DNA from: Micromonospora pallida
Lineage (GTDB): Bacteria > Actinomycetota > Actinomycetes > Mycobacteriales > Micromonosporaceae
DNA length: 64,000 nt
Direction of reading: 5' to 3'
Assembly (NCBI RefSeq): GCF_900090325.1
Contig: NZ_FMHW01000002.1
Location: 5,209,001 to 5,273,000 of the forward strand
A program made the translations under genes and the position numbers. The notes under the pieces are model-generated. The model ran no database searches. It had not been told where the DNA came from and worked only from the letters and a program-made list of their open reading frames with translations. This document shows, piece by piece, positions 9,734-29,327 of the stretch; the first letter of the stretch is position 1; every line of letters starts with the position of its first letter.

Positions 9734-10813
9734 TCAGGCGCCGGCCGGTCGGGGGTGCGCGCTGAAGAACTTCCAGATCTCCGCGGTCGCGTCCAACGCG
9801 GTCGAGGGGGGTTCGAGGCCGAGAAGTTGCTCGGCGCGCGGGTTCGGCTTCCCGCCGGGCCACTGGTGACCGGCGTCGGCGATGGTAATCAGGTTGACGG
9901 CGCGGCCCTGCGCGCAGGAGGTCGTCGACCGGGTCACCGGCCCGTCGGCGCGTTCCGTCGGCGCGGCGCAGTCGTCCACCGTGCGCCACTTCGCCATCAG
10001 CTCGGTCAGCGGCGGCCCGTCGATCTTCACCGGGTTCCGGCCGGTGCCGCCGTTGTCGCGCTTGCCCGGACCACCCCGGTACGGCATGGTCTCGTCGCGC
10101 AGACCGTGGATGTGCAGCACGCTGGCCGGGGCCGGGGACGCGCACTCGCCGGCCAGCGTGGTCGCCACCGCACCGACCGCGGCGAAGAGGTCGGTGTCGC
10201 AGGCCAGCCGGTACGCCAGCAGCCCGCCGTTGGAGATCCCGGTGACGTAGGTGCGGGCCGGGTCCACCGGCATCCGCTCCCGGAGGGTGCCGACGAGCGC
10301 CTCGATGAAGGCGACGTCGTCGACCCCCTGCCGGACCGGCTGGCCGCAGCAGTGTTCGCTGACCGCCCAGGCCCGCTTCACGCCGTCCGGGAAGGCGACC
10401 ACGAAGCCACCCCGGTCGGCCTCCTCGGTCCAGCCGTACGCCTCCTCGGCCTGCTCGCCGGTGCCGGCCGCGCCGTGCAGCATGACCACCAGCGAGACCG
10501 GCTTGGCCAGGTCCAGTGCGGCGGGCCGGTAGAGGCGGTAGGTCCGCTCCCGGTCGTCGACGGTGAGGGTGTGCGCGCTCGACCCGGCCGGCACGGCGGA
10601 GCCGGACGCGGTGGCGTTCGGGGCCGGTGAACCGTCACCGCCGCGCCGCTCCGCGCGCCGGTCGGCGGTACAGCCGGCGACGCCGGTCAGGCCGACCAGG
10701 ACGGCGAGGAACCCGGCGAGCAGGAACGGGGGGCGGTGCCGGCGGGTGCCACCGGGGGCACCCGCGGGCCGGGAGGCCGTGGCCTCCCGGTGGAAGGCAG
10801 TCAAAGGCATCAT
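9734..10813 (-). CDS. Lipoprotein esterase, PHB-depolymerase/LpqC-like
   Basis: A 359-residue secreted alpha/beta hydrolase. A basic N-region and hydrophobic core end in the lipobox LTGVAGC (Cys about residue 46), so it should be anchored to the outer face of the membrane. The catalytic region shows MLHGAAGTGEQ (oxyanion region), the nucleophile elbow GISNGG, HIHGLRDE (acid) and GHQWPGG (His), the pattern of polyhydroxybutyrate depolymerase and feruloyl esterase families. The ester substrate is unknown. The start is uncertain: two adjacent ATGs at 10813 and 10810, with a further one at 10861. It lies 47 nt upstream of the ABC ATPase and is probably first in that unit. Confidence 0.83.
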   Translation of the reverse strand: MMPLTAFHREATASRPAGAPGGTRRHRPPFLLAGFLAVLVGLTGVAGCTADRRAERRGGDGSPAPNATASGSAVPAGSSAHTLTVDDRERTYRLYRPAALDLAKPVSLVVMLHGAAGTGEQAEEAYGWTEEADRGGFVVAFPDGVKRAWAVSEHCCGQPVRQGVDDVAFIEALVGTLRERMPVDPARTYVTGISNGGLLAYRLACDTDLFAAVGAVATTLAGECASPAPASVLHIHGLRDETMPYRGGPGKRDNGGTGRNPVKIDGPPLTELMAKWRTVDDCAAPTERADGPVTRSTTSCAQGRAVNLITIADAGHQWPGGKPNPRAEQLLGLEPPSTALDATAEIWKFFSAHPRPAGA

Positions 10814-10894
10814 ATGCCCACTTTCACCGGCAATTGTTCGAGGAGTGTCAGGACTTGCCATACACCGGGCAAGGAAATCCGGGTGGGGTCGGGC

Positions 10895-10953: not shown

Positions 10954-12777
10954 TCAGTGGTGGCCTCGGGTGTCGTACCGGATCAGCTCCCAGCCGCCCT
11001 CGGGCACGTCGTCCGTCGGGTCGGCCCGCAGGTTCATCGGGTTGGCCGTGCCCAGGTAGAGCGTGGCCCCGTCGGTGACCATGTTGCGGATGCCGTAGTT
11101 CAGGTAGTTGCCGACACCGGAGTCGCTGACCAGCTTGGCCGGCTCCCTGGTGGACTCGAAGACCATCAGGTCACCGCCGTAGACCGGCTCCGGCAGGGCA
11201 GGGTCGTCGTCGGCCGTCGTCGCGGCCAGGGACGGTGCGCTGAGCGCCCGGGCGGCCGCCTCGACCGGCAGGCCAGCCATCGCGGCGGCCTCCTGGCTGA
11301 GTTCCTTGGCCAGGTAGCTCCAGTCCATCGTGCCGACGTAGAGCCGGCCGCCGGCCACCGCCATCTTCCAGGTGTAGTTCAGGTACGGGTTACCGAAGCC
11401 GGACGAGCCGTAGAGCGGGGTCTGCCCGGTCGAGACCTTCGCCCAGGCACCCGCACCACCGTTCGCCGCCGGGTCGTACGCGGGCAGTTCGGTCGCCCCG
11501 TAGAGCAGCTCGATCTTCTGCTTCCGCTCGCCCAGCTTCTTGCCCCGGTAGATGCTGATCGACCGCTGGGTGTTCTGGATCGTCGCCTGCCGCGCCTCGT
11601 CGCTGGCCGGCGGGTAGGCCAGCAGGTGCTGCCTCGTCGCCTTCAGCGGCACGTGCATGGTGCCCCAGTAGAGGTACCCGCCGTAGGAGACCATGCCGCC
11701 CAGGCCGTAGCCGGCGGCCACCACGGCGTCCGGCTCGTAGGTGGAGACGTCCCAGATCTGCTGCCAGGCGTCCACGTCCTCGGGGTTGAGGCCGGGCGCG
11801 CCGTGGGCGAGGACGGGGCTCATCCAGATCGAGGCGAGCTTGTTCGGCGGAGCCGGCTCGTCGGCGGCGGTGGCCAGGTCGGCGTCCGAGCCGGGCCAGG
11901 TGCTGACCACGACCCGCCCGTCGTGGACGGCGATGTCGGCGGCCTGCGCCGGCAGGTTGGCGACGATCTGGAAGTTGAACGGGTCGGCCTTGCTGCCGAT
12001 CCAGCGCAGCACGTGACCGCGCAGCGAACCGTTGGCGCCGACGCCGACGCCCCCGTACAGGGCACCCTCGGCGACGGTGAAGTGGCGGATGTTGCCGAAC
12101 TCGGGGAAGTTCCGCGAACCCAGGAAGGCCCCGGTGTCGGTGTCGAAGGCGAACAGGTTGATGGACTTGCCGATGGCCGGCCCACCGAGCAGGGCCACCC
12201 CGCCGAAGTTGCCGGCCGCCCGGATGCCGGTCGTGCTCCGCAGCCGGTCCGAGTGTTCCTTCGCGGAACCGATCACCAGGTCGGTCTTCTCGGTGAGCCG
12301 CTTCGCCTCGGTGTCGTAGGTGTAGAGGCGAGGCGTCCGGTGGTCACCCAGATAGCCCGGTAGCTGCGGGTTGGTCTTGACGATCTGGCTCTCCTGGTAC
12401 TCGCAGACCCAGTCGTCGTTGAGGACCGGCTCGTTGCTGCCCAACTGCCGTCCGCTGGTGAGGCAGTTGACGTTGGCGCCGCTGCCGAACCAGATGTCGT
12501 CGCCGGCCCGGGTCATCCCCCACAGATACCCATGGTTCACCTTGGCCTGCCCTGAGGCGCACGGCGGGCCCGCCGGGTAGGGCTGGCCGACGCCGGCGAA
12601 GCACTCGTCCGGCGCGGCCTTCGCGATCACCTGCGGATTCGGCTTCGGCTGGTGGTGCCGGTCGTCGCCAGCGGTCGGCGCGCCGAGCGCGGTTGTCGGG
12701 GCTGTCAGCGCGGCCCCGAGCCCCAGTACGGCGACGGCCGCCCAGAGCCGCCGCGAGTGGTTCCGGATGGGTTTCAC
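10954..12777 (-). CDS. Secreted protein of unknown function, propeller-like repeats
   Basis: About 607 residues with a GTG start at 12777; no clear ribosome site is seen. The N-terminus is a signal peptide (basic NHSRRLW, hydrophobic LGLGAALTA, probable cleavage after TALGA). The mature part has recurring strand motifs of the form GG-x-LY-x-GT, seen as YGGYLYWGTM, AGGRLYVGTM and DGATLYLGTA, plus EGALYGGVG. This suggests a beta-propeller. I do not recognise a family or catalytic site. It sits between the sulfotransferase and esterase genes and is bounded by hairpins on both sides, so it may be its own transcription unit in the same run. Confidence 0.7.
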   Translation of the reverse strand: MKPIRNHSRRLWAAVAVLGLGAALTAPTTALGAPTAGDDRHHQPKPNPQVIAKAAPDECFAGVGQPYPAGPPCASGQAKVNHGYLWGMTRAGDDIWFGSGANVNCLTSGRQLGSNEPVLNDDWVCEYQESQIVKTNPQLPGYLGDHRTPRLYTYDTEAKRLTEKTDLVIGSAKEHSDRLRSTTGIRAAGNFGGVALLGGPAIGKSINLFAFDTDTGAFLGSRNFPEFGNIRHFTVAEGALYGGVGVGANGSLRGHVLRWIGSKADPFNFQIVANLPAQAADIAVHDGRVVVSTWPGSDADLATAADEPAPPNKLASIWMSPVLAHGAPGLNPEDVDAWQQIWDVSTYEPDAVVAAGYGLGGMVSYGGYLYWGTMHVPLKATRQHLLAYPPASDEARQATIQNTQRSISIYRGKKLGERKQKIELLYGATELPAYDPAANGGAGAWAKVSTGQTPLYGSSGFGNPYLNYTWKMAVAGGRLYVGTMDWSYLAKELSQEAAAMAGLPVEAAARALSAPSLAATTADDDPALPEPVYGGDLMVFESTREPAKLVSDSGVGNYLNYGIRNMVTDGATLYLGTANPMNLRADPTDDVPEGGWELIRYDTRGHH

Positions 12778-12880: not shown

Positions 12881-12904
12881 CCCGTCAGCCGACCGGCTGA
12901 CGGG
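12881..12904. terminator. Hairpin at the sulfotransferase stop codon
   Basis: Perfect inverted repeat CCCGTCAGCCG-AC-CGGCTGACGGG (arms 12881-12891 and 12894-12904) overlapping the last codons and stop of the sulfotransferase gene. Its place at the end of the synthase-ACP-hydrolase-sulfotransferase operon suggests it terminates or attenuates that transcript. Confidence 0.55.
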
Positions 12905-13844
12905 ACCGGGACGGGTCGACGACCTTGTCGGCCACCTGCTCCGCCCACGTCTCGGGGTGGTCAAAGTCGAGGAAGCGGCCGAGTCGGCCCAGTTCGGCAA
13001 CCGGGTTGGCGACCAGTTCCTCGTACCGCATGGTCAGCAGGTGGGCCGGCTTCTCGTCGGCCAGCGCCTGCTCGGCCTGGGCCGCCATGAACGCGCAGAG
13101 GCCGAGGTAGCGGCGCAGGTCCTGGCCGCGCTCGCGGAGCGCGTCGGCGGTCAGCCGGTCCGGCAGGAACTGCTCCATCTCCGCCGGCACCTCCTGGCCG
13201 GGCTGCACCCGGAACGGGTCCAGCCCGCAACGGCCGAGGAACTCCACCCGGAGCTGGATGAGCTGGAACGACGAGTGCCGGCTCATCGACTTGGCGGTGG
13301 GCTCCCAGTCCCGGGTCAGGTAGACGATCTTCGCCTCGGGAAAGCCCCGGAGCAGGTACGGCGCCACGTGGCTGGAGCCGCCGGACCGCTCCACCCAACG
13401 CTTCCGGCCGGTCAGCACGGCCAGCAGGTCCAGGAAGTCCTGGTGGTGCCGGGCCACGCTCTGCTCGGGGAAGTCGGGCACCCGCCGGGCCAACTCGTCG
13501 AAGAGGGCGTCCGGGTCGTCGGAGACCTTCGACAGGGTGATCGCCAGGATCCGGGGCAGCTCGGTCATCCGGTCGCCCCACCGACCGGTCGCCGGGTAGT
13601 GCAGTTCCTTCGGCGGCAGCCCGATCCGGAACAGCGTGGACAGCTCCGCCTTGGGGCTGGACAGCACGTCCCAGTACTCGGCTCCGGTGATCACCTCGGC
13701 GCTGCGCGCCCACGGCGCCACCGACATGAAGAACTCCTGGGCGGAGAGCGTGTCCGGCTCCTCCGCGATCAGGTCGGAGAGGAGCGTCGACCCACACCGT
13801 CCACTGCTGATGATGATCGACCGGCCGGTGATCGGGGTGTCCAT
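12885..13844 (-). CDS. PAPS-dependent sulfotransferase
   Basis: A 319-residue soluble sulfotransferase. The 5'-phosphosulfate-binding loop SSGRCGSTLLSDLI is at residues 11-24, and the 3'-phosphate region is YLTRDWEPTAKSMSRHSS near residue 165. These enzymes transfer sulfate from PAPS to a hydroxyl. ATG at 13844 is preceded by AGGAGG with suitable spacing; an in-frame ATG at 13874 overlaps the hydrolase stop but would place the ribosome site inside the gene. The gene closes the operon after ACP and alpha/beta hydrolase genes. That is the same set of activities as the ACP-ST-TE end of CurM-type olefin-forming synthases. A sulfated lipid product is the alternative. Confidence 0.88.
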   Translation of the reverse strand: MDTPITGRSIIISSGRCGSTLLSDLIAEEPDTLSAQEFFMSVAPWARSAEVITGAEYWDVLSSPKAELSTLFRIGLPPKELHYPATGRWGDRMTELPRILAITLSKVSDDPDALFDELARRVPDFPEQSVARHHQDFLDLLAVLTGRKRWVERSGGSSHVAPYLLRGFPEAKIVYLTRDWEPTAKSMSRHSSFQLIQLRVEFLGRCGLDPFRVQPGQEVPAEMEQFLPDRLTADALRERGQDLRRYLGLCAFMAAQAEQALADEKPAHLLTMRYEELVANPVAELGRLGRFLDFDHPETWAEQVADKVVDPSRSRQPVG

Positions 13845-13870
13845 CGGGAGTCCTCCTGCGAGTTGCGTGG

Positions 13871-14755
13871 TCATGAGGTGGTGGTGTGGTCGACGGCGAG
13901 CCCACCGGCGACGGTGACCCCGTGCTCGGCGGGCGTCCCCGCCCCGACCGGCAGCACGCACTCGGCGGCCAACCAGTCGAAGACGTGCCGGCGGACCCGC
14001 TCGGGCTGGTCGATCAGGACGGTGTGCTTCTCTTCGGGTAGAACGACCGTGCGGGTCTGCGGCAGCACCCGCCGGACGACCGGGGCCAGCTCGCCCACCG
14101 CCGACCGGCCGCCGTAGAGGCAGAGCACCGGGCAGTCGATGGCCGCGAGCTGGCCGGCCGGCGGGAGCTGGCTGGCCGGCAGTTCCTCGGCAAGCGTGGT
14201 GTCGGTCAGCATCTGCCGGGTCTCGTCGGCCCGGCGGGCGGCGAGCCGCCCCCGCCGGGCCCCGATCTCGGCCACCGTGCCCTCCTTGGGGAGGCGGTCG
14301 GCGACCCGGGCGAGGCGGACCTTCACCCGGGCCATCCACTCCGGGACGGGTGGAGCGGACTCGACCGCCACGATGCCGGTGACCCGGTCCGGATGCCGCG
14401 CCGCGTACCCGAAGGCGATGGTGCCGCCGAAGGAGTTGCCGCAGAGCAGCAGCGGACCGGTCACGTCCAGCTCGGTGAGCAGTCCCGCTAGGTCGTCGAC
14501 GAAGTCGGCGAGGGCGTACCCGGTGGCCGGCCGGTCGCTGCGTCCGTGCCCGCGCAGGTCGTACAGGACCACCGGGAACCCGGCGGTGGCCAGCGGCTCG
14601 GCGAGGGTGAAGTACCAGCTCGCCATGGTGTCCGAGGCCATGCCGTGGATCAGCACGGCGGTCGGCATCGGCGCTGACCGGTCCGCCGGTGGCGGGTGGG
14701 GCGGGTCCAGGCGCTGCGCGTGCAGCGTGATCCCGTTCGCCCGGACCATGGTCAC
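13871..14755 (-). CDS. Alpha/beta hydrolase, probable thioesterase of the lipid synthase
   Basis: A 294-residue alpha/beta hydrolase. Motifs are LIHGMASDTMASW (oxyanion strand), YDLRGHGRSD, the nucleophile elbow GNSFGG and the His in EKHTVLIDQP. The usual acid after strand 7 is absent: the expected GxxD is GGRS. A Glu 24 residues after the nucleophile Ser (in VAVESAPP) could serve instead, as I recall for the CurM thioesterase. Such a Glu also occurs in MenH-like hydrolases, so this is suggestive only. GTG at 14755 overlaps the ACP stop (GTGA). A role in releasing the acyl-ACP product is inferred from context. Confidence 0.82.
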   Translation of the reverse strand: MTMVRANGITLHAQRLDPPHPPPADRSAPMPTAVLIHGMASDTMASWYFTLAEPLATAGFPVVLYDLRGHGRSDRPATGYALADFVDDLAGLLTELDVTGPLLLCGNSFGGTIAFGYAARHPDRVTGIVAVESAPPVPEWMARVKVRLARVADRLPKEGTVAEIGARRGRLAARRADETRQMLTDTTLAEELPASQLPPAGQLAAIDCPVLCLYGGRSAVGELAPVVRRVLPQTRTVVLPEEKHTVLIDQPERVRRHVFDWLAAECVLPVGAGTPAEHGVTVAGGLAVDHTTTS

Positions 14756-15066
14756 CGGGCGGCCACCTCGACCGTGCCGCCGGCCTTCGCGTCGAGCGCG
14801 TCGGCGATGTGCGTGACCAGGTGCCCGACGGTCAGGTCGGCGACGTTCTCCAGGTCCAGCTTGGCGACGAAGTGCGCGAAGTTGACGGTGTCCCCGTACC
14901 GGGTCTGGAGTCGGCCGGCGAGCGAGACCACGTCGATGCTCTCCATGCCGAGCTCGTCCCGGAAGGTGGTGTCCATGGTGATCTCCTGGTCGGCGACGAA
15001 GTCACCGAGCACGGCCTGGATCATCTGGGTGATGTCGGCGAGGACCTTGGCCTGCGTCGCGGACAT
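14752..15066 (-). CDS. Free-standing acyl carrier protein
   Basis: A 104-residue ACP with the phosphopantetheine site in DELGMESIDVV (Ser about residue 44). It differs from the three integral ACPs of the synthase, which carry DLSIDSIKRAE, so it probably serves a separate step. The ATG at 15066 has AAAGGAG upstream. It starts 39 nt after the KS-AT-DH-PPTase gene and overlaps the hydrolase gene by 4 nt. This position suggests it carries the finished or beta-hydroxy chain for the sulfotransferase and hydrolase. The phosphopantetheine arm is probably added by the C-terminal domain of the upstream protein. Confidence 0.9.
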   Translation of the reverse strand: MSATQAKVLADITQMIQAVLGDFVADQEITMDTTFRDELGMESIDVVSLAGRLQTRYGDTVNFAHFVAKLDLENVADLTVGHLVTHIADALDAKAGGTVEVAAR

Positions 15067-15105
15067 GGGGTTGCTCCTTTTCGGATCGGCTGATCGGTGC
15101 GCGGG

Positions 15106-18100
15106 TCAGATTCGGGTGCCGTCGGGGGCGGTGGCGGGCTCCGGACCCCAGGTCCAGGCCACGACGTACCGCCGGGGCGGCAGGTCGTCGGGGTTGGCGA
15201 CCTCCCGGTGGCCGACCCGGTAGGTGCGGCCGGCCGTCTCGACGGTGAGCGCCTCGTCGGTGGCCGCCCGGACGGCGATCGGGTGCGGGCCGCCGGCCGG
15301 GCCGACGCCCTCCGCCTTGCCGACCGCCTCGCGGGCCGCCCGGAAGCGGGTCGCCCAGTGCTGGCGTCGTGCGGCGTCCGCGCCGGCCAGCGAGGCCAGC
15401 AGCGTCGTCTCCGCCGGGTCGAGCACGCAGCCCGCCGGCAGGTCGGCGACCTCGGCGACGTCGATGCCGACACCCGGTCCGCCGACCGGTTCCCCCGGGG
15501 TACGCGGCTTCGCGATAGCCACGCCGATCTCCTGGCAGTGCGCCAGCGACACGTCGCAGTCGCGCCAGCCCCGACCCTCCCGGGCCTGGACGAACGGTCG
15601 GCCGGTCGGGTCGTTGCCGACGGTCAGCTCGATCGGGTAGATGTCGGTGTGCCCGTCCGCCCAGAGGCGGGACCGGACGGCGTCCTTGGCCGCGATCCGG
15701 CCGAGCATCCACTGCTTGCGGGTCTTCGCCGGGTGCCGTTCGTACTCGGCGTTGGCGGCGCCACCGAGGATGCCCCGGGCCGCCATGCCCCGGGTGACCA
15801 GGTCGGTCCAGCAGTCGAAGGCCATCGTCCAGCCCTCCGGCTGGAACAGCGACATCGGGTACTTCTCCGGGAATCGCTCGGCGACCCGGGCCTGCGGATG
15901 GCTGTCGAAGCGCCGGTCCACCGCGCCGTTGATCTGCGCCCAGACCCGGCCCTGGTAGCTGAGCTGGGTGTCCGCGATGAGCTGCCCGTCGTCGATGGAA
16001 CGGACCCGGGCGACGCATTCGAACGCCCGCCCGGCCGGCGGGGGCGGCCCGAAGAACTCGACGTGCCGGAGACCGACCGGCAGCGCCACGGTCCGGATCG
16101 GCTGGGTGGTGATCAGCCAGTTGCCGATGACCTGGAGCGCGTTGTCCAGCAGCGCGCCGGGCGGCACCGGGGCGGTGACGACACCCCGGACGTGCATGTC
16201 GCCGATGGCGTGGATCTCGCTGACCCCCTGGAACTGGGGACCGTGGAACATCAGCCGCTCGGCGTACATCTCGTCCGCGGGGAGCGTGGTCGGCCGCTCG
16301 GTGGCCGGGTCGTGCGTCCAGGGCTGCTCGGTCGGCTCCGGGTAGGCGCTGCTCATCTCGACGGTGGCCCGGGCGTACGAGCCGATCGCGCAGGTGTACC
16401 GGTTCGACCCGGCCTCCCGCACGGTGATCTCGACGTCCTGGGCCGGTTCGGCGATCAGCCAGCGGTTGAACTTGGCGTCGTGCACCGCGATCACCCGCTG
16501 ACCGGGCAGGAGCTGCTCGGCGGCGTCCATCATGTGCTGGACCAGGGCGGTCGCCGGCACCACCGGCCAGCGGTCCTCGATGTTCGGCCAGTCGTCCGGC
16601 TGCACGAAGAAGCAGTGGTCCCGCAGGTACGGCATGGTCTCGATGGAAACCCGCAGGGTGATCCGACCGACCTCCTTGGCGGCCGGAGCGGGACGGACGG
16701 CCGGCGGTGCGGCCGGCCGCTGCGGCGCGACGGCCGGCGTGCCGGGACGGGCTCCGGCGACCGCCGGGCCGCCGGTCCGGGCCGGGGCCGCCGGTGCGGC
16801 ACCCGGTCGGGGCGCGACGGCCGGGGTGGTGCCGGCACGGGGAGCGGTGACCGGCGTGGTGCCCGGTCGGGGCGCGACGGCCGGCGGTACCACCGGCGGC
16901 CGGGGAGCAGCGGTGGGACGCGGCTGGACGGGCGCGGCCGTGCCGCCCGCCTTGGCCAGCACGTTCGCCGTGCCCTGGGCGGTGTCCCGGAGCAGGGCGG
17001 CGAGTTCGGCGGCGGCCCGGGAGTGCCCGGCGAGCTGGCTGAGCGCGGCCAGCGCCCCGGCGGCTTCGCCGGTCGCCGCCGGTGCGGCGGGCTGGGCAGC
17101 GGCATCCGGCGCCGCGGCGGCCGGGGAGCCGTTGCCCGAGGCGGGCAGGCCGAGTAGACCGGCCGCGTCCTCGCCGAGCCGGACCAGCGGTCCACCCAGG
17201 TCGAGCTTGATGGTCGGACCACGCTTGCCGGTACCCACGGTGCTCTTCGCCGCCGGAGCGCGACCACCCGGGGTGGACAGGACGCGCAGGTCCGGCGAGC
17301 CACCCTCCACCCAGAGCGCGGTCGCCACCCGGCGGAGCTGGTTGAGTCCGCCGCGGTGCGAGACGTTGACCGGAATCGCCAGGTGGTCCTTGCCGCGCAG
17401 GTTGTCGTCGATGAGCGAGGCGAGCTGGCCGGCACCGACCTGGAGGAAGACCCGGAAACCGGCGTCGTACATGTTGGCGACGGTCTGCCGGAACCAGACC
17501 GGCTCCATCATGTGCCGGATGAACAGGTGCCGGACCTCGTCGAGATCGTCGGGGCACGGTGCGGCCAGGGTGCCCGACCAGATCGGAAGCTGGCTCGGCT
17601 GCACCCGCAGCCGGCCCAGCGCGTCGCCGATCGAGCGGAGCCCGTCGCCGAAGATCGGGGTGTGGAACGCCGACTTGAAGGGCAGCTTCTGGCAGAAGAC
17701 GTTCCGCCCGCGCAGCACCTCCACCAGGCGGTCGACCTCGGTCTCCGGCCCGTTGACCACGCACTGCTGCGGGGCGTTGTCGTGCGAGAGCACCACCCCG
17801 GGAAAGTCGGGCAGCAGGGGCGTGACCTGGTCCGCCGCCGTGGCGGCGGCGGCGAAGACGTACCCGGAGATCTCCACCGACTCGGCGCTGAACATGGCGA
17901 GGAACTCGTCCATGCTGGCCCCGTCGGCCTGGCCGCTGACCGCGGCGGCGGTCCACTCGCCGATGCTGTGCCCGGCGACCGCGTCGGGCGTCACGTTCAT
18001 CCGACTCAGCGCATCGTGCAGCATCTTGCCCACCTCGATCAGGCCGGCGCCGTGCTGCCCGAGATCCTCCATCGACCAGGGGCGGTCCGGCATCCCGAAG

Positions 18101-19917
18101 TGGGCGGCCATGTCGGTGGTCCGCGGCGAGAACTCCGCCTCCAGACCGGGGAAGACCGAGATGAGCTTGCCGCCGCCGGCCAGCAGCGGGTCCGGGGTGA
18201 ACCAGATGTCCCGGCCGCCCCGCCATGCCTGGCCCCGGGCCACCGTCTTGCGGGCCACGGTGAGCAGCTTGTCGCTGGGGTTGACGATGCCGAGCCGGAC
18301 GCGTTCGGCCCCGTCGACCGGGCCGGGTGCGGCCTGGGCCCGCTCGGCGCCGAGCCGGCGTACCGTCACGTCGTCCTTCGCCAGGAGTTCGGCGAGCGCG
18401 GCCGAGGTCGGCGCGGCGAGCCAGAGCACCTGGTCCGGCTCGTCCACCACGACCTTGCCGTCGGCCGTCGCGGTCAGTCCGGACGTCGGCAGGGCCACCC
18501 CGGCCGAGTCGGTCACCTGCTCGACGATCACGTGGGCGTTGATCCCGCCGAAGCCGAAGGCGTTCACCCCGGCCCGGCGCGGGCCGTCGGTCTCCCACGG
18601 CTGGGCGGAGGTGATCGGCGCGAACCGGGTCTGGGCCATCTCGGCCCGCGGGTTGTCGCAGTGCAGGGTGGGCAGCAGCACGCCCCGGTAGACGGCGAGC
18701 GTCGCCTTGATCAGGCCGGCGGCGCCGGCCGCCGGCATGGTGTGGCCGATCATCGACTTCACCGAGCCGATCACCGGCTTCGGCCCGCCCCGGTGCGCCC
18801 CGAAGGTCTGCCCGATGGTGGTCAGCTCGGCGGCGTCGCCGGTGGGGGTGCCGGTGCCGTGCGCCTCCAGCAGGCCGAGGGCGTCCGGGGCGGTCGGGTC
18901 GAGGCCGGCTGCCGCCCAGGCGCGCTCGATGGCCAGCACCTGACCGGAGACCGCCGGGTTGAACATGCTCGCCGACTTGCCGTCGCTGGAGACCCCGCTG
19001 CCCCGGATCACCGCGTAGACCCGGTCGCCGTCGCGCAGCGCGTCGGCGTACCGCTTGAGCACCACGATGCCGGTGCCCTCGCCGATCAGCAGGCCGTCGG
19101 CGTTCGCGTCGAACGGCCGAATCTCACCCTGCCGGGACAGCGCCCGGAGCTGGTTGAACACCGACCAGAAGCTGATGTCGTGCACGTGGTGCACGCCGCC
19201 GGCCAGCACCGCGTCCAACCGGCCGTTCTGCAACTCGGTGATGCCCTGGTCGACCGCGATCAGCGACGAGGCGCAGGCCGCGTCGATGGTGTACGCCGGG
19301 CCGCGCAGGTTGAGCCGGTTCGCCACCCGGGACGCGGCCAGGTTCGGGACCAGGCCGATCGTCCCCTCCGGCTGGTACGGGCCGAGCCGCTCGTCGAACT
19401 TCTTGCGGAGCATCTCCAGCCGGGCCGGGTCGACGTCCGGGATCAGCTCCCGGAGGATGCTGATGACCTGGCTGGACATCCGGACCCGCTGCGCGTACCG
19501 GGCCTGGGCGGGGCTGAGGATGCCGCCCCGGCCCAGAATCACCCCGACCCGCTCCCCCGACGGGAGCTTGTCCGGGCCGCCCGCGTCGTCGATGGCCTTC
19601 GCGGCCACCTCGAGGGTGATGAGCTGGTCGGGCTCGATCTCGTGCACCGACGCGGGCATCACGCCGAACTTCAACGGCTCGAAGGTGGCGTACTCGTCGA
19701 CGAAGCCACCCCGCCGGCAGTACATCCGGTCCGCCCGGTGGGCCTGCTCGGGGTCGTAGAACTCCTCGTCCCAGCGGTGCTCCGGGACGTCGGTGATGGC
19801 GTCCACGCCGCTGACCAGGTTGCGCCAGTAGCTGTCCAGGTCACCGGCCCCGGGCATGAGCGCGGCCATACCGACGATCGCGATCTGCTGATCGGGCTTG
19901 GTCACGGCGGTCACCAC
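15106..19917 (-). CDS. PUFA-synthase-like protein: KS-AT-DH-PPTase
   Basis: A 1603-residue iterative synthase subunit. KS, residues about 8-470: active Cys in DAACASS near residue 212, and His residues in EAHGTGT and IGHTMPAAG. AT, about 590-880: GHSIGE near 648 and FKSAFHTP, but the usual N-terminal FPGQGSQ is replaced by FPGLEAE. An Ala/Pro-rich linker at about 930-1080 has no ACP. A hot-dog dehydratase starts at about 1085 (LRDHCFF, then FHGPQFQG and LDNALQ). The C-terminal Sfp-like phosphopantetheinyl transferase, about 1380-1600, has RIAAKDAVR, GIDVAEV and FRAAREAVGKAEG. It overlaps the preceding synthase gene by 7 nt. This is the PfaB/PfaC-like partner with a built-in ACP-activating enzyme. 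Confidence 0.88.
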   Translation of the reverse strand: MVTAVTKPDQQIAIVGMAALMPGAGDLDSYWRNLVSGVDAITDVPEHRWDEEFYDPEQAHRADRMYCRRGGFVDEYATFEPLKFGVMPASVHEIEPDQLITLEVAAKAIDDAGGPDKLPSGERVGVILGRGGILSPAQARYAQRVRMSSQVISILRELIPDVDPARLEMLRKKFDERLGPYQPEGTIGLVPNLAASRVANRLNLRGPAYTIDAACASSLIAVDQGITELQNGRLDAVLAGGVHHVHDISFWSVFNQLRALSRQGEIRPFDANADGLLIGEGTGIVVLKRYADALRDGDRVYAVIRGSGVSSDGKSASMFNPAVSGQVLAIERAWAAAGLDPTAPDALGLLEAHGTGTPTGDAAELTTIGQTFGAHRGGPKPVIGSVKSMIGHTMPAAGAAGLIKATLAVYRGVLLPTLHCDNPRAEMAQTRFAPITSAQPWETDGPRRAGVNAFGFGGINAHVIVEQVTDSAGVALPTSGLTATADGKVVVDEPDQVLWLAAPTSAALAELLAKDDVTVRRLGAERAQAAPGPVDGAERVRLGIVNPSDKLLTVARKTVARGQAWRGGRDIWFTPDPLLAGGGKLISVFPGLEAEFSPRTTDMAAHFGMPDRPWSMEDLGQHGAGLIEVGKMLHDALSRMNVTPDAVAGHSIGEWTAAAVSGQADGASMDEFLAMFSAESVEISGYVFAAAATAADQVTPLLPDFPGVVLSHDNAPQQCVVNGPETEVDRLVEVLRGRNVFCQKLPFKSAFHTPIFGDGLRSIGDALGRLRVQPSQLPIWSGTLAAPCPDDLDEVRHLFIRHMMEPVWFRQTVANMYDAGFRVFLQVGAGQLASLIDDNLRGKDHLAIPVNVSHRGGLNQLRRVATALWVEGGSPDLRVLSTPGGRAPAAKSTVGTGKRGPTIKLDLGGPLVRLGEDAAGLLGLPASGNGSPAAAAPDAAAQPAAPAATGEAAGALAALSQLAGHSRAAAELAALLRDTAQGTANVLAKAGGTAAPVQPRPTAAPRPPVVPPAVAPRPGTTPVTAPRAGTTPAVAPRPGAAPAAPARTGGPAVAGARPGTPAVAPQRPAAPPAVRPAPAAKEVGRITLRVSIETMPYLRDHCFFVQPDDWPNIEDRWPVVPATALVQHMMDAAEQLLPGQRVIAVHDAKFNRWLIAEPAQDVEITVREAGSNRYTCAIGSYARATVEMSSAYPEPTEQPWTHDPATERPTTLPADEMYAERLMFHGPQFQGVSEIHAIGDMHVRGVVTAPVPPGALLDNALQVIGNWLITTQPIRTVALPVGLRHVEFFGPPPPAGRAFECVARVRSIDDGQLIADTQLSYQGRVWAQINGAVDRRFDSHPQARVAERFPEKYPMSLFQPEGWTMAFDCWTDLVTRGMAARGILGGAANAEYERHPAKTRKQWMLGRIAAKDAVRSRLWADGHTDIYPIELTVGNDPTGRPFVQAREGRGWRDCDVSLAHCQEIGVAIAKPRTPGEPVGGPGVGIDVAEVADLPAGCVLDPAETTLLASLAGADAARRQHWATRFRAAREAVGKAEGVGPAGGPHPIAVRAATDEALTVETAGRTYRVGHREVANPDDLPPRRYVVAWTWGPEPATAPDGTRI

Positions 19918-22900
19918 CCCGACGCGGTGTAGACGACGGAGGTGTCACCCGGCTCGGCCCAGGCCAGCTCGCGGAGCAGGCTGAGCGCGCCCTCCTCCGG
20001 GTCGATCAGGCCGATGCCGCGACGGGCGTACTCCCGGCTCAGCTCGGCGGTGACCATGCCGCCGTGGCCGGCACCCGGCGCCCAGGGGCCCCAGTGGACG
20101 GTCACGCAGCGGATCCCGGTCTGGGTGTTCCAGCGGGTGCCCATGCTGTCCAGGGCGTCGTTGGCGGCGGCGTAGTCGGCCTGGCCCCGGTTGCCGTAGG
20201 CGGCGGCGATGCTGCCGAAGAAGACCACGAACTTCGGCTGGTCGGGCAGCTCGTCGAGGCCGGCGAGCACCGCGCGGGCCCCGTTGACCTTGACGTCGAA
20301 GACCCGGGTGAAGGATGCCGGGTCCTTCTCGGCGATGAGCTTGTCCTCGATGATGCCGGCCGCGTAGACCAGGCCGTCGAGCCGGCCGTGGTGCTGGTGG
20401 ATCTGGGCGAGCAGCACCTTCGTCGCGTCCGCGTCCCGCACGTCGAGGGTGTGGTAGCGCACCTCACCGCCGAGTTCGGTCAGCTCCGCGATGGTCGCCT
20501 CGACCTCGCGGCCGGCCATGATGGCCTGCGCCCGACGCTCGATCTCGGCCGGGGCGCGCAGCCCCTGCTTCACCAGCGCGGCGCGCAGCGCGGTCTTGTC
20601 CCGGGCGGCGGCCAGCTCCGGGTCCTCCGGACCCGCCGGTCGCGGCGTACGGCCGACCAGCTCGATCCGGCACCGGCCGGCCGAGGCGAGGGTCCGGGCG
20701 AACCAGGGGGTGATGCCCCGGGCCCCACCGATCAGCACGACCACCGACTCGTGGCTGAGGCCGAGTGCGGCAACCTCCGAGGCACCCTCACCGGCCGGGC
20801 CGGCGCCCCGGGAGGCGAGTGCGCCCAGGTCCACCTGGACCAGGTCGGCGACGTACCGCTCGTCGCCGCGTCGAGCGACGACCGGGGGCTTCTCCTCCCC
20901 GACGGTCAGCAGTTCGTCGAGCAGTTGCAGGGCCAGGACCTCCGGCTCCGCCTCGGCCTCCAGCGCGACGTAGCGGGCGGTCAGCTCCGGGTACTCCCGG
21001 GCGATGGTGCGGAACAGGCCGGGCATGCCGTCGGCGGTACCACCGGCGGCGGGGGCACCGGCCCCGATCAGCCAGCGCGGGTTGGTCGCCAGCACCCGCT
21101 GGACCAGCGGAAAGACCGACGGCAGCAGGGGCCCTTCGGTACGGGTGAGTCCGTCGAGCAGCAGGAACCCGTCGAAGCCCTGGTCGGCCTGCTCGCTGTC
21201 GAGGACGCCGATCTGTCCGCCCGCGCCGTACTCACCGAGCAACTCCGCGAGGTACGCCCCGACCGCACCGCCACCGGTGATCAGGAACTGCTTGCCGGCG
21301 AGGATCTCGGCGGGGTCGCCGACGGACGCGGGCCGGACCGACTCCTGGGGCACCAGCCGCTTCGGCGGGATGCCAGGGTTCGCCAGTTCCTCGGCCGCTG
21401 CCGGGGCGGCGGCCGGGGCCGGCGTCGCCTCGACCGGGGCGGCCGTGGCGTTCATCTTCTGGTCGAGCCAGGCCACCATGGCGCGGACCGTGCGCGCCTT
21501 GACCAGGTCCTCCAGCTCCGACTCGTCACCCTCCACCGCCAGATCCAGCCGAGACGCGACCTCACCGGCCACCTCAGCCCGCTTGATCGAGTCGATCGAC
21601 AGATCCGCCTCCAGATCCAGATCCAACTCGATCAGATCCACCGGATAACCCGTCCGCTCACTGATCACCGCCAGAATCGCGGCCTGGAAGTCCGCCAACG
21701 ACGCACCACCCGCCGGAGCAGCCATCGTCGCGGCGGCGGGCGCGGCGGCGACCGGCGCCACGGCGGCGGCCGGCGCGGACACCGTGACGGTGGCCGACAT
21801 CTTCGCCTCGAGCCAGGTCACCATGGCGCGGACGGTGCGCGCCTTGACCAGGTCCTCCAGCTCCGACTCGTCACCCTCCACCGCCAGATCCAGCCGAGAC
21901 GCGACCTCACCGGCCACCTCAGCCCGCTTGATCGAGTCGATCGACAGATCCGCCTCCAGATCCAGATCCAACTCGATCAGATCCACCGGATAACCCGTCC
22001 GCTCACTGATCACCGCCAGAATCGCGGCCTGGAAGTCCGCCAACGACGCACCACCCGCCGGAGCAGCCGGAGCCGCGACGGGTGCCACGGCGACGGCGAC
22101 CGACACGGCGGTGCTGCCCATCCGCTGGTCGAGCCAGGTCACCATGGCGCGGACGGTGCGCGCCTTGACCAGGTCCTCCAGCTCCGACTCGTCACCCTCC
22201 ACCGCGAGACTCAGCCGCTGTGCGACCTCACCGGCCACCTCAGCCCGCTTGATCGAGTCGATCGACAGATCCGCCTCCAGATCCAGATCCAACTCGATCA
22301 GATCCACCGGATAACCCGTCCGCTCGCTGATCACCGCGAGGATCGCGTTCTGGAAGTCCGCCAGCGACGGACCGGCCGGGGCGACCGGGGCGGGCGCGGG
22401 CGGGGCGACGGCCGGCGCGGGAGCGTAGGCGGTGGCCACGGCGGAACCGCCGTTGGTGGAGACCGCCATCGCCGGGACTGGGGCCGGCTCGGCTACCGGG
22501 ACGTACTGCGCCGGAACGAACTGCGCGGGCGCGACCTCGGCCGGGGCGTACGCCGAGCCGTTCGGGTACCCGTCGGTCCGGTGCTGCGGTTCGGCCGGCT
22601 GCCAGACCAGGCGGCCGCCGCTGCCGCCGTCCCCGAGGAAGGCGAGCATGATGTCCCGCTGCGAGGCGATCATGTCCCGGGTGGTCCGCAGGAACTCGTG
22701 CAGCAGCTCGCCCCGGATGTCCTGGACGACATGCTGGACGGGCGCGGCCGCGGGGGCGGTGGCGGGTGCGGGTGCGGGTGCGGGGACACCGTTCGAGGGG
22801 CTCATCGGCAACTCCTTGATGCGTCGGGGAGGCGTCATGCCGCCGGGGAGGCAGTCGCCGTTCTGGTCGCGGACGAGTTGTCCGTCGACCGTCCAGACCG

Positions 22901-25900
22901 GTCGGCGGTTCGGCGCGGCGGGCCGGGGCCGGCCGTCGACCCGTCCGTGGAACAGCCAGTCGGTGCGCACCGGCACGCCGGCGCAGGCGATCTCGCCGAC
23001 CGAGACGAGGAATCCGCGCAGTCCGTCGGCGGGGCCGCGCTCGGTGGCGATGGCCCGGTACGGCCGGTCGCCGAGCACCGCCTTCACCAACCTGCTGAGC
23101 ACCTGGCCGGGGCCGACCTCGACGAAGGTGCGGGCACCGGCGGCGTACATGGCCTCGATCTGCTCGACGAAGCGGACCGGTTCCCCGATCTGCTCGGCGA
23201 GCTGCTGGCGGAGCTGGTCGAGGTTGTCGACGTAGGGGGCGGCGGTCAGGTTGGACCAGACCGGGATGCGCGGCTCGCTGATCCGTCGGGTGGCGAGCAC
23301 CTCGGCGAAGCGCTCCACCGCGCCGGCGACCAGCGGGCTGTGGAAGGCGCAGGCCACCGAAATGATCTTCGCCGAGATCCGGGCCTCCTTGAGCGCCACC
23401 ACCGCCGCCTCGACCTTGGCGGTCGGGCCGGAGACGACGATCTGCTTCGGCGCGTTCCGGTTGGCGAGCACCACCTCGCTGGTCAGCCCGGCACTGGCCA
23501 GCACCTGGGCCACCTGCTCGGGCGTCGCGCTGACCGCGGCCATGGTGCCCGGGTCGTCACCGGGGGTCGCGCCGAGGATCGCCGCAGCCCGCTCCCGGCT
23601 GAGGTCGAGCAGCGTCCGGGCGTCGAACGCGCCGGCGACGCAGAGCCCGACGAGTTCGCCGTAGCTGTGTCCGCCGGTCATGTCGGGGCGGACGCCGAGG
23701 CGGCGCAGCAGGTGGTCGACGGCGAGGCCGCCGATACCGAGCACCGGCTGGGCGACCCGGGTGTCCCGGACCCGCTCCTCCTGCAGTCTGCGGTGGGCCT
23801 GGTCGAAGGCGGTCGGCGGGAAGAGCAGCTCCGCCGCGTCGCGGTCCAGCTCCAGGTAGTGCCGCAGCTCGGGGAAGGTGACGAAGAGTTCGGCGAGCGC
23901 GCCGGGGCGCTGGCTGCCCTGGCCGGGGAAGAGGAAGGCAACCTGGCCCGGGTCGGCGTCCCCGGCCGGCTGCACCAGCCCCTGGGCGGGGTCGTGCTCA
24001 CCGGCGAGGGCCCGCCGCAGCAGGGCCTCCAGTTCCGCCACGTCCCGGGCGACGACCGCGACCCGGGTCGGGCCGCGTCGTCCGGCGGCCTCCCCGGCGA
24101 CCTGGGCGGCCAGCTCGGCCAGCCGGCCCGGCCGGTTCCGGTCTCCGTCGGCGGCCAGCCGGTCGGCGAGCTGGAGGATCGCCTGATGGGCGGCGGCCCG
24201 GTCCACCCCGGGGAAGCAGAACAGCTCGGCCGGCCAGGTACGACGGGCGTGCCGGGGCTCCGGCGCGTCGCCGTACGCGGCGAGCACGGTGTGGAAGTTG
24301 GTTCCGCCGAACCCGAAGGCGCTGACCCCGGCGATCCGCTCCTGGGCCGGGACCGGCCAGGGGCGGGCCTCGGTGTAGAAGGCGAACGGGCTCTGCTCGG
24401 GATGCCAGGCCGGGTTGGGCCGTTCCAGGTGGATGGTCGGCGGGCGGATGCCGTTGTAGAGGGACAACGCCACCTTGATCACGCCGGCCAGGCCGGCGGC
24501 GCACTTGGTGTGCCCGATCTGCGACTTCACCGAGCCGAGCGCGCAGTTCCCGGGCTCCGCGCCGGCCTCGACGAACATCCGGGTGAGCGTCTCCAGCTCG
24601 GTCCGGTCGCCGACCACCGTGCCGGTGCCGTGCGCCTCGACCAGGCCGACCTCGCGCGGCGAGATGCCGCTGCGGCGGTACGCCCGGTCCAGCGCCCGGC
24701 GCTGCCCGTCCGTCCGGGGCGCGGTGAGGCCGAGCGCGCGTCCGTCACTGGAGCCACCGAGGCCCTTGACCACCGCGTAGATCCGGTCACCGTCCCGCTC
24801 GGCGTCGGCGAGCCGCTTCAACACGATGCAGGTCACCCCCTCGCCGAGGGCGATGCCGTCGCCGGTGCTGTCGAACGGGCGGGACCGGCCGGTCGGCGAG
24901 AGCGCGTGCGCGGAGGTGAACATCAGGTAGTCGTTGACGCCGTTGTGCAGGTCCGCGCCGCCGCAGATCATCATGTCGCTGTCGCCGCTGGCCAGTTCCT
25001 TGCAGGCGGCGTCCATGGCGGCCAGCGACGAGGCGCAGGCCGCGTCGATGGTGTAGTTCGGGCCGCCTAGGTCGAGCCGGTTCGCCACCCGGCCGGCGAT
25101 CACGTTCGCCAGCACGCCGGGGAAGCTGTCCTCGGTGACCCTGGGGAGCAACTCCTGCATCTCGTCGGGCACTTCGCCGAGGTACGCCGGAAGCATGGTG
25201 CGCAGGGTCTGCGCGTGCCCCATGTCGCTGCCGGCCTCCGCGCCGAACACCACACCCGTGCGGCCGTGGTCGACCCCCGGGGCGTCGTAGGCGTAGCCGG
25301 CGTCGACCAGTGCCCGGTGGGAGATCTCCAGGGCGAGCAACTGGGTCGGGTCGATGCTGGCCAGGGCGGCTGGGGGATGCCGTAGCCGATCGCGTCGAAG
25401 GGCACCGGCTCGATGAAGCCGCCCCACTTGGAGACGCTGATCCGGCCGGTCTGCCCGGGGCCGACCTCCGGGGCGTAGTAGAGGTCGGTGTCCCATCGCT
25501 GCGGGGGCACCTCACCGACGGCGTCCGCGCCGCTGAGCACCGTACGCCAGAAGCTGGCCAGGTCCGGTGAGCCGGGCAGGATGCAGGCCATCCCGACGAT
25601 GGCGATGTCCAGCGGCGCGGGCGCGTCCTCGATCTCGGCGGGCGGCGCCAGCCGTTCCCGGATCGCGTCGAGGCTGTCCCCGTGGTACGCGCGCGCCCCG
25701 GCGCTGACCGCGTCGTGCAGCCCGGCGATGGTGGTCGCGTCGTCGCGCAGCACGACGATCTGCCCGGCCATGAACATGCCCTCGGCGGCCTGCTCGTCCT
25801 CGCCGACCGAGCGCAGCGTGTCGCCCTCGCGCACGATGCCCTTGCTGGCGATCCGCGCCCGCCCGATGTTGAGCTTCTCGAGCTCCTGCCACGCGTCGCG

Positions 25901-27576
25901 GCTCTCCATGCCGGAATCGCGCAGCTCGTCGCGGCGCCGGTAGAAGTCGTCGACGAACGGGGTGGGCAGGCAGCGGGTGACGTGTCCGGGGGCGGTCTCC
26001 AGCAGCGCGGTCCGCTCGGCGGCGATCGCCTCGCGCTGGAAGAGCGGCTGGACCGCGTTGTGCTCCACCGCCTCGGCGGTGAAGAGGTACGCGGTGCCCA
26101 TCAGTACGCCGATCCGCGCGCCCCGGTGGGCCAGCGGCGCGGCCATGGTGGCGACCATCGCGGCCGAGCGGGCGTCGTGGATGCCGCCGGCGAAGAACAC
26201 CTGGATCGCGGTGGCCGCGTCCGGTTCGGCGTCGAGGTACTCCTCGAGCACCATGAGCTGGGCCTCCCAGAGCGGGAAGCTGGCCCGGGGTCCGGTGTGG
26301 CCGCCGCACTCGGCGCCCTCGAAGATGAACCGGCGGGCCCCGGAGCGCAGGAACTGCCGCAGCAGTCCCGGCGACGGGACGTGCAGGAACGTGGTGATGC
26401 CCTGCTGCTCCAGCGCCTTGGCCTGGGGTGGCCGACCACCGGCGATGATCGCGCAGGCCGGGCGCAGCTCCCGGATGACCTCCAGTTGCGCCTCTCGGAT
26501 CTCCTCGGGGGCGAAGCCGAGCACGCCGACACCCCAGGGCCGGTCGCCGAGGCGGGCGGCGGTCTCGGTGAGGATGCGGCGGGTCGGTCCTGCGCCGTTG
26601 AGGGCGAGCGCGACGAAGGGCAGGCCACCGTCCTCGGCGACGGCGGCGGCGAAGCCGGGCTCGTCGCTGACCCGGGTCATCGGCCCCTGGGCGACGGGCA
26701 CCCGGATCTGGAGGTCCACGGCCAGCGGCGAGCCCGGTGCCAGCACCTCACCGGCGGCGGGGTCGTTGGCGGCGTCGAGCAGCGCGTCCCGGATGCCCCG
26801 GACGGCGGCGGCGGTGTCCGGCCAGCGTTCGGCGAAGACGGCGGCGAGCCAGCCGTCCTGGCCGATCGGCAGCAGCTCGGAGGCCTCGTCGTGCGGGCCG
26901 CCACGCCGGATTCCCCGGACACCGTCGACCAGTACGGTCTCGGAGCCGTCCATCCGTCGGATCGCGGCCTGCACGTCGGTGGGCAGTTCGGATTCGGGCA
27001 TGAGCGCGAGCTGGCTGTCCAGCACGACGCCGGCCGCGCCGCCGACCAGGCAGGCGCCCGCCGTGCGGGGACCGACCCCACCGGCGACCCAGACCGGCAG
27101 GTCGAGGGTCTCGTCGGCGACGAGTTGCTGGAGCAGGACGAACGAGCTGAGGTCGCTGCCCCGCCCGCCGGCCTCCATCCCCGGGCGATCAGGCCGTGCG
27201 CGCCGGCAGCGGCGGCGGCGCGGGCCTCGTCCCGGCTGGTCACCTCGACCAGCACCCGGTAGCGCGGGGTGGTCTCGGCCAGCGACCAGGGCGAGTCCGG
27301 GGTCAGGACGACCAGGTCGACCCCACCGGGCGCGACCCGCTCCACCTCGTCCAGTGTGGCCTGGCACCCGGCCGGCACCCGTATCCCGAGAGGCCCGGGC
27401 GACCACGTGACGGCCTGGGCCAGCGCGCGCAGCACCCAGTCGTCGCCGCCCCCGAGGTCCAACACTCCCAAGCCACCACCGACCCGGGCGGCAGCGGCCA
27501 TCCGCGGGGCGGGCTCCAGGGCACCGCCGGGGTTGACGACCATGACGAGGTCGCGCTTGTACGTTGCAGTACTCAT
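19911..27576 (-). CDS. PUFA-synthase-like protein: PfaD-KS-AT-ACP3-KR (two apparent frameshifts)
   Basis: One gene of about 2555 codons once a missing base is restored at each of two C/G runs (27179-27182 and 25372-25376). The N-terminal 650 residues are a PfaD-type FMN enoyl reductase (GPRTAGACLVGGAAGVV, FIFEGAECGGHTGPR). KS follows from about 655 (Cys in DAACASS near 845, EAHGTGT, IGHTKCAAG), then AT (FLFPGQGSQ near 1215, GHSYGE near 1305). Three ACPs lie at about 1750-2010, each with DLSIDSIKRAE. A C-terminal KR has VVLIGGARGI near 2285 and YAAAND. It iteratively builds and reduces a long acyl chain. PfaD is usually a separate protein, so this N-terminal fusion is notable. No stop or ribosome site separates PfaD from KS. 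Confidence 0.85.
21481..22330 (-). repeat. Triplicated ACP coding repeats
   Basis: Three direct repeats encode the tandem ACPs, starting at 21481, 21826 and 22147. The stretches 21481-21723 and 21826-22068 (243 nt each) appear identical apart from one base near the start. The 22147 copy is more diverged. Codons here are rich in GAT, TTG and GGT compared with the rest of the gene. The near-identity implies recent duplication or gene conversion. Confidence 0.85.
25372..25376. other. Apparent frameshift in the KS domain (G5 run)
   Basis: Upstream codons end at the KS residues AIGYGIP and the KS resumes one frame over at ASIDPTQLL. Adding one base to this run restores a continuous IPPAALASIDP, the expected KS sequence. 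A sequencing undercall is more likely than a true mutation, because the reading frame is otherwise intact on both sides. Confidence 0.85.
27179..27182. other. Apparent frameshift in the PfaD-like domain (C4 run)
   Basis: The frame changes between GAHGLIARG and MEAGGRGSDL. One added base in this run joins them into the normal enoyl reductase sequence. This is the same kind of one-base loss as at 25372-25376. Confidence 0.85.
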
Positions 27577-28403: not shown

Positions 28404-29327
28404 GTGCGTAAACTCATCCTGCTCGCCCTGGTGGGCTTCGGTGCCCAACTTGTCGACGGCAGCCTCGGGATGGCATACGGAGTGACATCCACCACATTGC
28501 TGCTCGCCATCAACACCAGCGCCGCCAGCGCGTCGGCAACCGTTCACCTGGCCGAAATCGGCACGACACTGGTCTCTGGTGCCGCCCACTGGCGGTTCGG
28601 CAACGTGGACTGGCGGGTGGTGTTCCGGGTCGGCGTGCCGGGAGCCCTCGGGGCCTTCCTCGGCGCGACCTTCCTCTCCGGGATCTCCACGGCGGCGGCC
28701 GCCCCGATCATGTCGCTGATCCTGCTCACCCTCGGCTGCTACCTGCTGATCCGCTTCACCGTCGCCGGTCTGCCGACCGGACGGGTGGGGCTGCCACTGC
28801 GCAAGCGGTTCCTCGGCCCACTGGGTCTGGTCGCCGGCTTCGTCGACGCCACCGGTGGTGGCGGCTGGGGCCCGGTCGGCACCCCCGCCATCCTCGCCAG
28901 CGGCCGGATGGAGCCGCGCCGGGTGATCGGGTCGATCGACACCAGCGAGTTCCTGGTGGCGGTGGCCGCCAGCCTCGGCTTCCTGGTTGGGCTCGGCTCG
29001 GAGAACATCGACTACGGCTGGGTGCTCGCCCTACTGCTCGGCGGGATGGCCGCCGCGCCGATCGCGGCCTGGCTGGTCCGGAAGGTCCCGCCCCGGGTGC
29101 TCGGCTCCGCGGTCGGCGGCATGATCATCCTCACCAACGGGCGGACGCTGCTGCGCAGCGAGTGGGTCGACGCCCCGGACATCGTCCGGTACGCCTGCTA
29201 CACGGTCGTGACGGCGCTCTGGGCAGCGGCGGTGGTGTGGTCGGTCCGGCAGCACCTCGCCACCCGGAACAGCGCGCCGGCCGCCAGCGCGGAGCGGACC
29301 GGGATGGCCGACGAGGTCGCCTCCTGA
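28404..29327 (+). CDS. TauE/SafE-family sulfite/anion exporter
   Basis: A 307-residue polytopic membrane protein of the TauE/SafE family, members of which export sulfite, sulfonates or related anions. It shows the N-terminal signature VGFGAQLVDGSLGMAYGVTS, the mid-protein repeat GFVDATGGGGWGPVGTP, and about eight hydrophobic helices. GTG at 28404 is the only start near the 5' end of the frame. It is divergent from the synthase operon across an 827-bp regulatory region. A link to sulfate or sulfite released by sulfotransferase chemistry is possible but rests on position alone. Confidence 0.85.
   Translation: MRKLILLALVGFGAQLVDGSLGMAYGVTSTTLLLAINTSAASASATVHLAEIGTTLVSGAAHWRFGNVDWRVVFRVGVPGALGAFLGATFLSGISTAAAAPIMSLILLTLGCYLLIRFTVAGLPTGRVGLPLRKRFLGPLGLVAGFVDATGGGGWGPVGTPAILASGRMEPRRVIGSIDTSEFLVAVAASLGFLVGLGSENIDYGWVLALLLGGMAAAPIAAWLVRKVPPRVLGSAVGGMIILTNGRTLLRSEWVDAPDIVRYACYTVVTALWAAAVVWSVRQHLATRNSAPAASAERTGMADEVAS

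Follow-up and report, generated by a model that had tools for sequence, protein, structure and literature searches.

Gene content and organisation of the operon

The window, namely the whole 64,000-nucleotide stretch of the Micromonospora pallida genome analysed here, carries on its minus strand five co-directional genes within positions 12885-27576, which encode a predicted two-protein lipid synthase, a free acyl carrier protein (ACP), a thioesterase (TE) and a sulfotransferase (ST). These genes, identified from open reading frames (ORFs) and Pfam, and a hairpin at the end of the ST gene are as follows.

19911..27576, minus strand: gene 1, PfaD(ER)-KS-AT-ACP-ACP-ACP-KR synthase (ORFs, Pfam and active-site motifs; three frames in this strain)
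15106..19917, minus strand: gene 2, KS-AT-DH-PPTase synthase (ORF and Pfam; the catalytic motifs searched for are present)
14752..15066, minus strand: free ACP with the motif GMESID (PF00550; conserved in ST-type and glycosyltransferase-type clusters)
13871..14755, minus strand: alpha/beta-hydrolase TE, Ser108-His244-Glu132 (Pfam and homolog alignment)
12885..13874, minus strand: 3'-phosphoadenosine-5'-phosphosulfate (PAPS) ST (PF13469/PF00685; the CurM ST is the best profile and fold match)
12881..12904, minus strand: hairpin over the ST stop codon with perfect 11-bp arms (terminator scan, folding versus shuffles)

The five co-directional genes and their domains were thus as described in the initial annotation. 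The gene order was retained in 26 of 27 loci from relatives (L020-L026 and L050-L069; 20-kb reads), with the ST gene alone in the remaining locus (L066), which argues that the arrangement is not due to chance. These 27 loci are part of all those with an ST of at least 56% identity; the count excludes L027, whose ST is distant, and L028, whose contig is 10 kb long. The overlap is 7 nt between genes 1 and 2 and 4 nt between the ACP and hydrolase genes, and the stop codon of the hydrolase gene is overlapped by the first ATG of the ST gene.

The motifs of KS, AT, KR, DH, ACP and PPTase searched for in genes 1 and 2 were all present, the PPTase of gene 2 being recognised by its motif together with a holo-ACP synthase match under the cut-off. 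Both KS domains retained DAACASSL with the active Cys, and therefore neither resembles a chain-length factor (CLF). The DH in gene 2 was of the polyketide synthase (PKS) type only (PF14765; PF21089 under its cut-off), and motif and Pfam analyses of the two genes did not recover the hallmarks of canonical PfaABCD systems, namely a KS-CLF pair and tandem FabA-type DHs. The PfaA model gave 1002.2 bits versus a cut-off of 1010.1 on the intact gene 1 of the closest relative, G266. As judged from domains and motifs, the earlier label of a polyunsaturated fatty acid (PUFA) synthase type describes a family resemblance; with a PKS-type DH only and an active Cys in both KS domains, this is not a canonical PUFA synthase.

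Gene 1 had been presented as a single gene, and although its domains were all recovered, it is read in three frames in the window (26677-27576, 25100-27406 and 19911-25496), with single-base frame changes relative to G266 near 27178 and 25376. Of the 26 relative loci having the operon, 25 carry it as a single ORF of about 2270-2710 codons; in the exception (L055), gene 2 is split too. The breaks represent either a damaged copy or assembly errors.

Extension of the unit past the hairpin

The hairpin, which had been taken to close the operon, exists, but the terminator scan detected no run of T behind it, and its folding advantage over shuffled sequences is only modest (z -1.8). Seven further co-directional genes run to position 4609 with gaps of -4 to 107 bp, the first of them (X) beginning 107 bp past the ST gene. 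The hairpin has no closing role, and the cluster continues past it. The additional genes, and one divergent gene on the other side of the operon, are listed below.

10954..12777, minus strand: protein X, about 600 aa, N-terminal signal-like stretch, family unrecognised (no Pfam and no PDB match)
9734..10861, minus strand: protein Y, lipoprotein-like esterase of the PHB-depolymerase family (PF10503)
8550..9686, minus strand: ABC transporter ATPase (PF00005)
7732..8553, minus strand: ABC-2 permease (PF01061)
6824..7693, minus strand: CysQ-like phosphatase of 3'-phosphoadenosine 5'-phosphate (PAP) (PF00459)
5913..6827, minus strand: CysD-like sulfate adenylyltransferase subunit (PF01507)
4609..5913, minus strand: CysN-like sulfate adenylyltransferase GTPase subunit (PF00009)
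28404..29327, plus strand: TauE/SafE-family membrane transporter, divergent, upstream of the operon (PF01925)

The genes of this unit other than gene 1 are open reading frames. The ABC-2 pair, X, Y and CysQDN genes lie in one unit in the window, as they also do in other Micromonospora clusters, and the window thus combines the ST with an exporter and sulfate-activation genes. When the flanks of 32 stretches (31 from relatives plus the window, with one place counted twice as L011 and L020) were clustered, 27 had X next to the operon and 21 had Y, and the TauE-family gene lay upstream in 13. Fifteen of 20 downstream stretches contained X, 11 CysD and 8 the ABC pair; G262, where only the ST is present, and one second copy belong to this set of 20.

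The genome containing the window (G000) also holds a second CysQDN copy at a place of the glmU-prs-rplY type. The two CysN copies (window 4609-5913 and G000:C2:5148487-5149758) lie about 64 kb from each other and share 99% identity, compared with about 92-93% for the linked CysD and 70-73% for the linked CysQ copies. The higher identity of CysN suggests gene conversion or a recent exchange of CysN.

Distribution of the cluster and the protein X family

Searches of 354 Micromonosporaceae genomes, in which up to six candidates per genome were scored and absences are accordingly not absolute, gave 56 genomes with each of three queries: the DH piece of the synthase (identity of at least 53%), X (E of at most 7e-78) and the ST (identity of at least 56%). 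The DH and strong-X sets coincided genome for genome; the ST set differed from them by the loss of G265 and the gain of G262. G265 is a draft of about 780 contigs with its cluster on short contigs (L142 and L143), and G262 has the ST only, adjoining a TauE-family gene. Weak X matches occurred in three further genomes. Because the genomes are related, hypergeometric values for these co-occurrences come out much too low to serve as probabilities.

Neither Pfam nor the PDB yielded a relative of protein X under the thresholds applied. A search at E 1e-5 gave 537 homologs, and among the 120 listed every one that bears a name is designated hypothetical or uncharacterized. The gene occurs in one to three tandem copies in relatives, with up to three in Actinoplanes-like clusters, and two unlinked paralogs are found in the same genome as the window (G000:C2:3849646-3850551 and G000:C2:6244323-6245288). 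Four cysteines were invariant across 16 aligned members. G266 and G273 each carry the whole operon twice; the second copies (L068 and L069) have an ST 58-59% identical to that of the window and X divergent upstream.

Sister clusters with a glycosyltransferase gene

Synthases of lower identity were found in nine more Micromonosporaceae genomes (DH 35%-45%; L115-L119 and L136-L139). A search across the phylum matched 9 of 396 genomes at E 1e-15, of which two were ST-type and seven, all from other families, supplied loci L129-L135. Sixteen of the 18 ST-less relatives examined had a UDP-glycosyltransferase-like gene after the synthase, ACP and TE genes, on the same strand and at no more than 63 bp from the aligned ends. 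These 16 comprised all loci with a DH at about 34%-49% identity, including L131, L132 and L135, and the glycosyltransferase (GT) was assigned to PF00201/PF06722 in the four examples tested. None of ST, X and Y was present in the stretches read of the 16 GT-type loci; one of the genomes (G122) had a 36% identical ST about 14 kb outside its stretch.

By gene order, therefore, the ST gene occupies the slot of the GT gene of the sister clusters. A KS-AT tree with the gene 1 KS as the outgroup united the 25 ST-type rows in a single clade (99/98) and set ten GT-type rows next to it; L133 and L134, from which the gene 2 KS was not recovered, were not part of it. The GT form is taxonomically wider, which suggests that sulfate is the derived state relative to the GT form.

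Sulfotransferase and thioesterase

The ST contained the phosphosulfate-binding loop GRCGST, Glu45, Arg186 and Ser194 (numbered from 13868), and the residues of the PAPS site were invariant in the best 120 of 655 homologs. The closest named homolog among the matches listed was from M. echinospora (97%). A single-sequence PDB search gave weak matches only, to glycopeptide STs and a cytosolic sulfotransferase, and CurM was reached by the profile only. The initial annotation had proposed comparing the protein with the CurM/Ols STs by structure prediction; in this comparison, the CurM ST was the top fold match, in agreement with a PAPS sulfotransferase of the CurM/Ols kind. Distant ST homologs (about 26%-40% identity; L070-L082 and L027) occurred in different surroundings, in some cases close to PKS genes, and were set aside as uninformative.

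The TE has the catalytic set Ser108-His244-Glu132, with Glu on strand 6 and Ser at the usual Asp place. The same Ser-His-Glu set occurs in CurM, and the four positions in ST-type TEs (the best 120 of 2100 matches) were S in 120/120, E in 120/120, S in 116 or A in 4, and H in 120/120. The TEs of the 18 ST-less loci served as a control and were nearly identical at these positions (S 18/18; E 17/18 with one D; S 16 or T 2; H 18/18). A CurM-like triad is thus a property of the wider TE family, and the CurM-like acid was dropped as support for alkene release. Only W47, F85 and S195 marked the ST-type TEs (at least 95% of the 120, less than one-quarter of the others), and none of them is charged. 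Such comparisons indicate that the TE gained no sulfate-reading residue along with the ST.

Arg205, Asn211 and Asn267 of the CurM TE are presumably the residues that handle sulfate and carboxylate, and their equivalents were not found in the window TE or among the residues listed for its homologs. Of the best 120 TEs, 115 were listed for the Arg205 column, with A (85), T (13), V (7), S (6), D (2) and G (2), and 119 for the Asn267 column, with T (65), S (47), R (3), A (2), Y (1) and G (1); the Asn211 column was Glu in the window TE (column numbers differ by 2 between the two alignment indexings used). The CurM TE ranked 24th among the TE profile matches, and the fold search returned generic hydrolases, with the CurM TE (3qit) not among the best 50 matches listed.

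Two unusual TEs were observed in relatives. In the lid region of the G013 TE (L026:14905-16020), a short SDAAELTSRL-like repeat is expanded in tandem, and L131 has a second TE beside the first (L131:7888-8625), in which GGHSLHVD is close to GGHNLHID of the CurM TE and the Ser-Glu-Ser-His set is the same.

Predicted product and alternative explanations

Gene content, the shared core, the change from GT to ST, the presence of sulfate-activation and ABC-2 genes in the unit and the co-occurrence of X with the synthase were the features established by sequence comparison. On balance, we interpret them as a conserved cluster with a shared synthase-ACP-TE core, in which the ST likely caps a released hydroxy-lipid with sulfate and the product is probably an exported sulfolipid. 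GTs of this kind and sulfotransferases can both use a hydroxyl, and the exchange of one for the other therefore points to a hydroxy-lipid. In the proposed pathway, the two KS-AT proteins would iterate with KR, DH and optional PfaD (ER) reduction on the tandem ACPs, and KR would leave the chain with one hydroxyl, at the beta or another position. The acyl chain would then pass to the free ACP and be hydrolysed from it by the TE, after which the ST would move sulfate from PAPS to the hydroxyl and CysQ would remove PAP. The ABC-2 pair could export the anionic lipid, and X, perhaps with Y, might bind, anchor or process it outside the cell. A fuller scenario, which we put forward tentatively and with less confidence than the product itself, is a clade-specific Micromonosporaceae sulfolipid system in which an old lipid-release cassette changed its cap from sugar to sulfate and recruited the secreted X, which would bind or anchor the sulfolipid on the exterior of the cell or spore.

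Several observations weigh against an exported sulfolipid. The CurM ST was both the best PDB profile match and the top fold match of the window ST, and the ACP, TE and ST genes are translationally coupled, as would be expected if all three act together on an ACP-bound chain. In L140 and L141 (DH about 31%), ACP and TE lie apart and no adjacent GT gene is present; a third such distant genome (G036) and four weaker DH matches were left out of the reading. The tree by itself is silent on which cap is older. The ABC pair was absent from the Actinoplanes-like downstream stretches read, and CysQDN in Actinoplanes-like loci lies past glmU-prs-rplY, which looks like its ordinary place. Linked sulfate activation is a feature of the Micromonospora form, and export and a linked PAPS supply are not universal. 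Finally, with gene 1 broken, the pathway may be inactive in this strain unless the breaks are assembly errors.

The initial annotation had proposed a terminal-alkene pathway, that is, CurM/Ols-like release by separate proteins, in which the ST would sulfate a beta-hydroxyacyl chain on the free ACP and the TE would release a long terminal alkene by hydrolysis, decarboxylation and loss of sulfate. The ST is CurM-like, CurM-type STs sulfate a beta-hydroxyl too, and the TE could serve both outcomes. However, the same active site is found in ST-less TEs (17 of 18 with Glu, one with Asp), the Arg205 column (A/T/V/S/D/G) and the mostly T/S Asn267 column of the listed orthologs differ from the residues we take to act in CurM, the CurM TE ranks 24th in the profile matches and is not among the 50 structural matches listed, and an exporter and secreted partners lie within the unit. 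A Ser-His-Glu TE accompanied by an ST is, by this comparison, not diagnostic of alkene release, and we regard this outcome as unlikely, although it deserves consideration; to our knowledge, no actinomycete pathway to hydrocarbons of this kind has been described before. It is more doubtful still that sulfate is a transient leaving group, yielding an unsaturated acid, a cyclised ether or a lactone that is exported without sulfate. The CurM-like ST is compatible with this scheme, and the TauE/SafE transporter and CysQDN would fit a high sulfate turnover, but Pfam recognised no isomerase or cyclase family in the unit and the ST sits in the place of a glycosyltransferase.

Sulfation of a protein, such as tyrosines of X, by an ST merely hitch-hiking with the lipid genes appears very improbable: the ST is coupled to the TE rather than to X, it sits in the UDP-glycosyltransferase-like slot, and its profile match to tyrosylprotein sulfotransferase (TPST) was weak (E 0.14 and above). 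A separate question, independent of the product made elsewhere, is whether the cluster is decaying and yields no product in this strain. The two frame breaks in gene 1 are in line with decay, as are the split synthase genes of L055 and the retention of only the ST beside a TauE-family gene in G262; nevertheless, the remaining genes of the unit are open, gene 1 is whole in G266 and an assembly error is possible. Decay thus seems the less probable state, with an appreciable chance of being correct.

Comparison with known systems

A fused pfaDA and a pfaBC-PPTase in a Renibacterium-like cluster are reported in a passage of PMC13291983, and the consulted part of Shulse and Allen (2011; PMC3098273) describes uncharacterised secondary lipid synthase types, of which Type M comprises Frankia, Actinosynnema, Renibacterium and Streptomyces avermitilis. 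As in the window, PfaD of the Renibacterium-like synthase is fused to a KS-AT-ACPn-KR protein and a PPTase ends the second protein, its product being uncharacterised in these passages; an ST follows in the window, unlike in the Renibacterium-like synthases. A word search of the main text of both papers (PMC3098273 and PMC13291983) found no occurrence of sulfo- or sulfotransferase and none of Micromonospora. The cluster is not described in the consulted parts of PMC3364876, PMC8698034 and PMC8146288, and full-text searches of open-licence PMC articles gave no description of it among the matches listed. Terminal-alkene release by ST and TE is covered in portions of PMC6274090 and PMC3903477. CurM/Ols systems share with the window a PAPS ST of the closest known fold, an alpha/beta TE with Ser-His-Glu and a nearby ACP. 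The window differs from them in its separate proteins, the order ACP-TE-ST, an iterative-type synthase with no FAAL seen, a TE type common to the GT clusters and the absence of the residues presumed to handle sulfate.

Heterocyst glycolipid synthases consist of a PUFA-like synthase followed by a glycosyltransferase cap. They resemble the sister clusters in this respect, whereas the window has an ST and linked sulfate-activation genes instead. Mycobacterial sulfolipid-1 is an exported lipid of polyketide type with sulfate on trehalose. The predicted product of the window is likewise a polyketide-type lipid carrying sulfate and would be exported, but its synthase is different, and no trehalose-related or acyltransferase gene besides the synthase ATs was recognised in the unit.

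The GT gene in sister clusters of five families and the ST gene in one Micromonosporaceae clade suggest a head-group logic for orphan lipid synthases, which could be tested by a one-gene exchange. The analysis also exposes a large unannotated family, that of X, which tracks the synthase genome by genome, and corrects the tempting but non-diagnostic inference that a Ser-His-Glu TE with an ST means an alkene.

Other features of the window

Positions 60001-62000 have a GC content of 56%, versus mostly about 70%-75% elsewhere in the window, and no gene was called there by the crude caller used; this stretch is possibly a recent insertion. A gene of the fatty-acid-hydroxylase family (PF04116) lies at 43893-44780, about 16 kb from the synthase genes.

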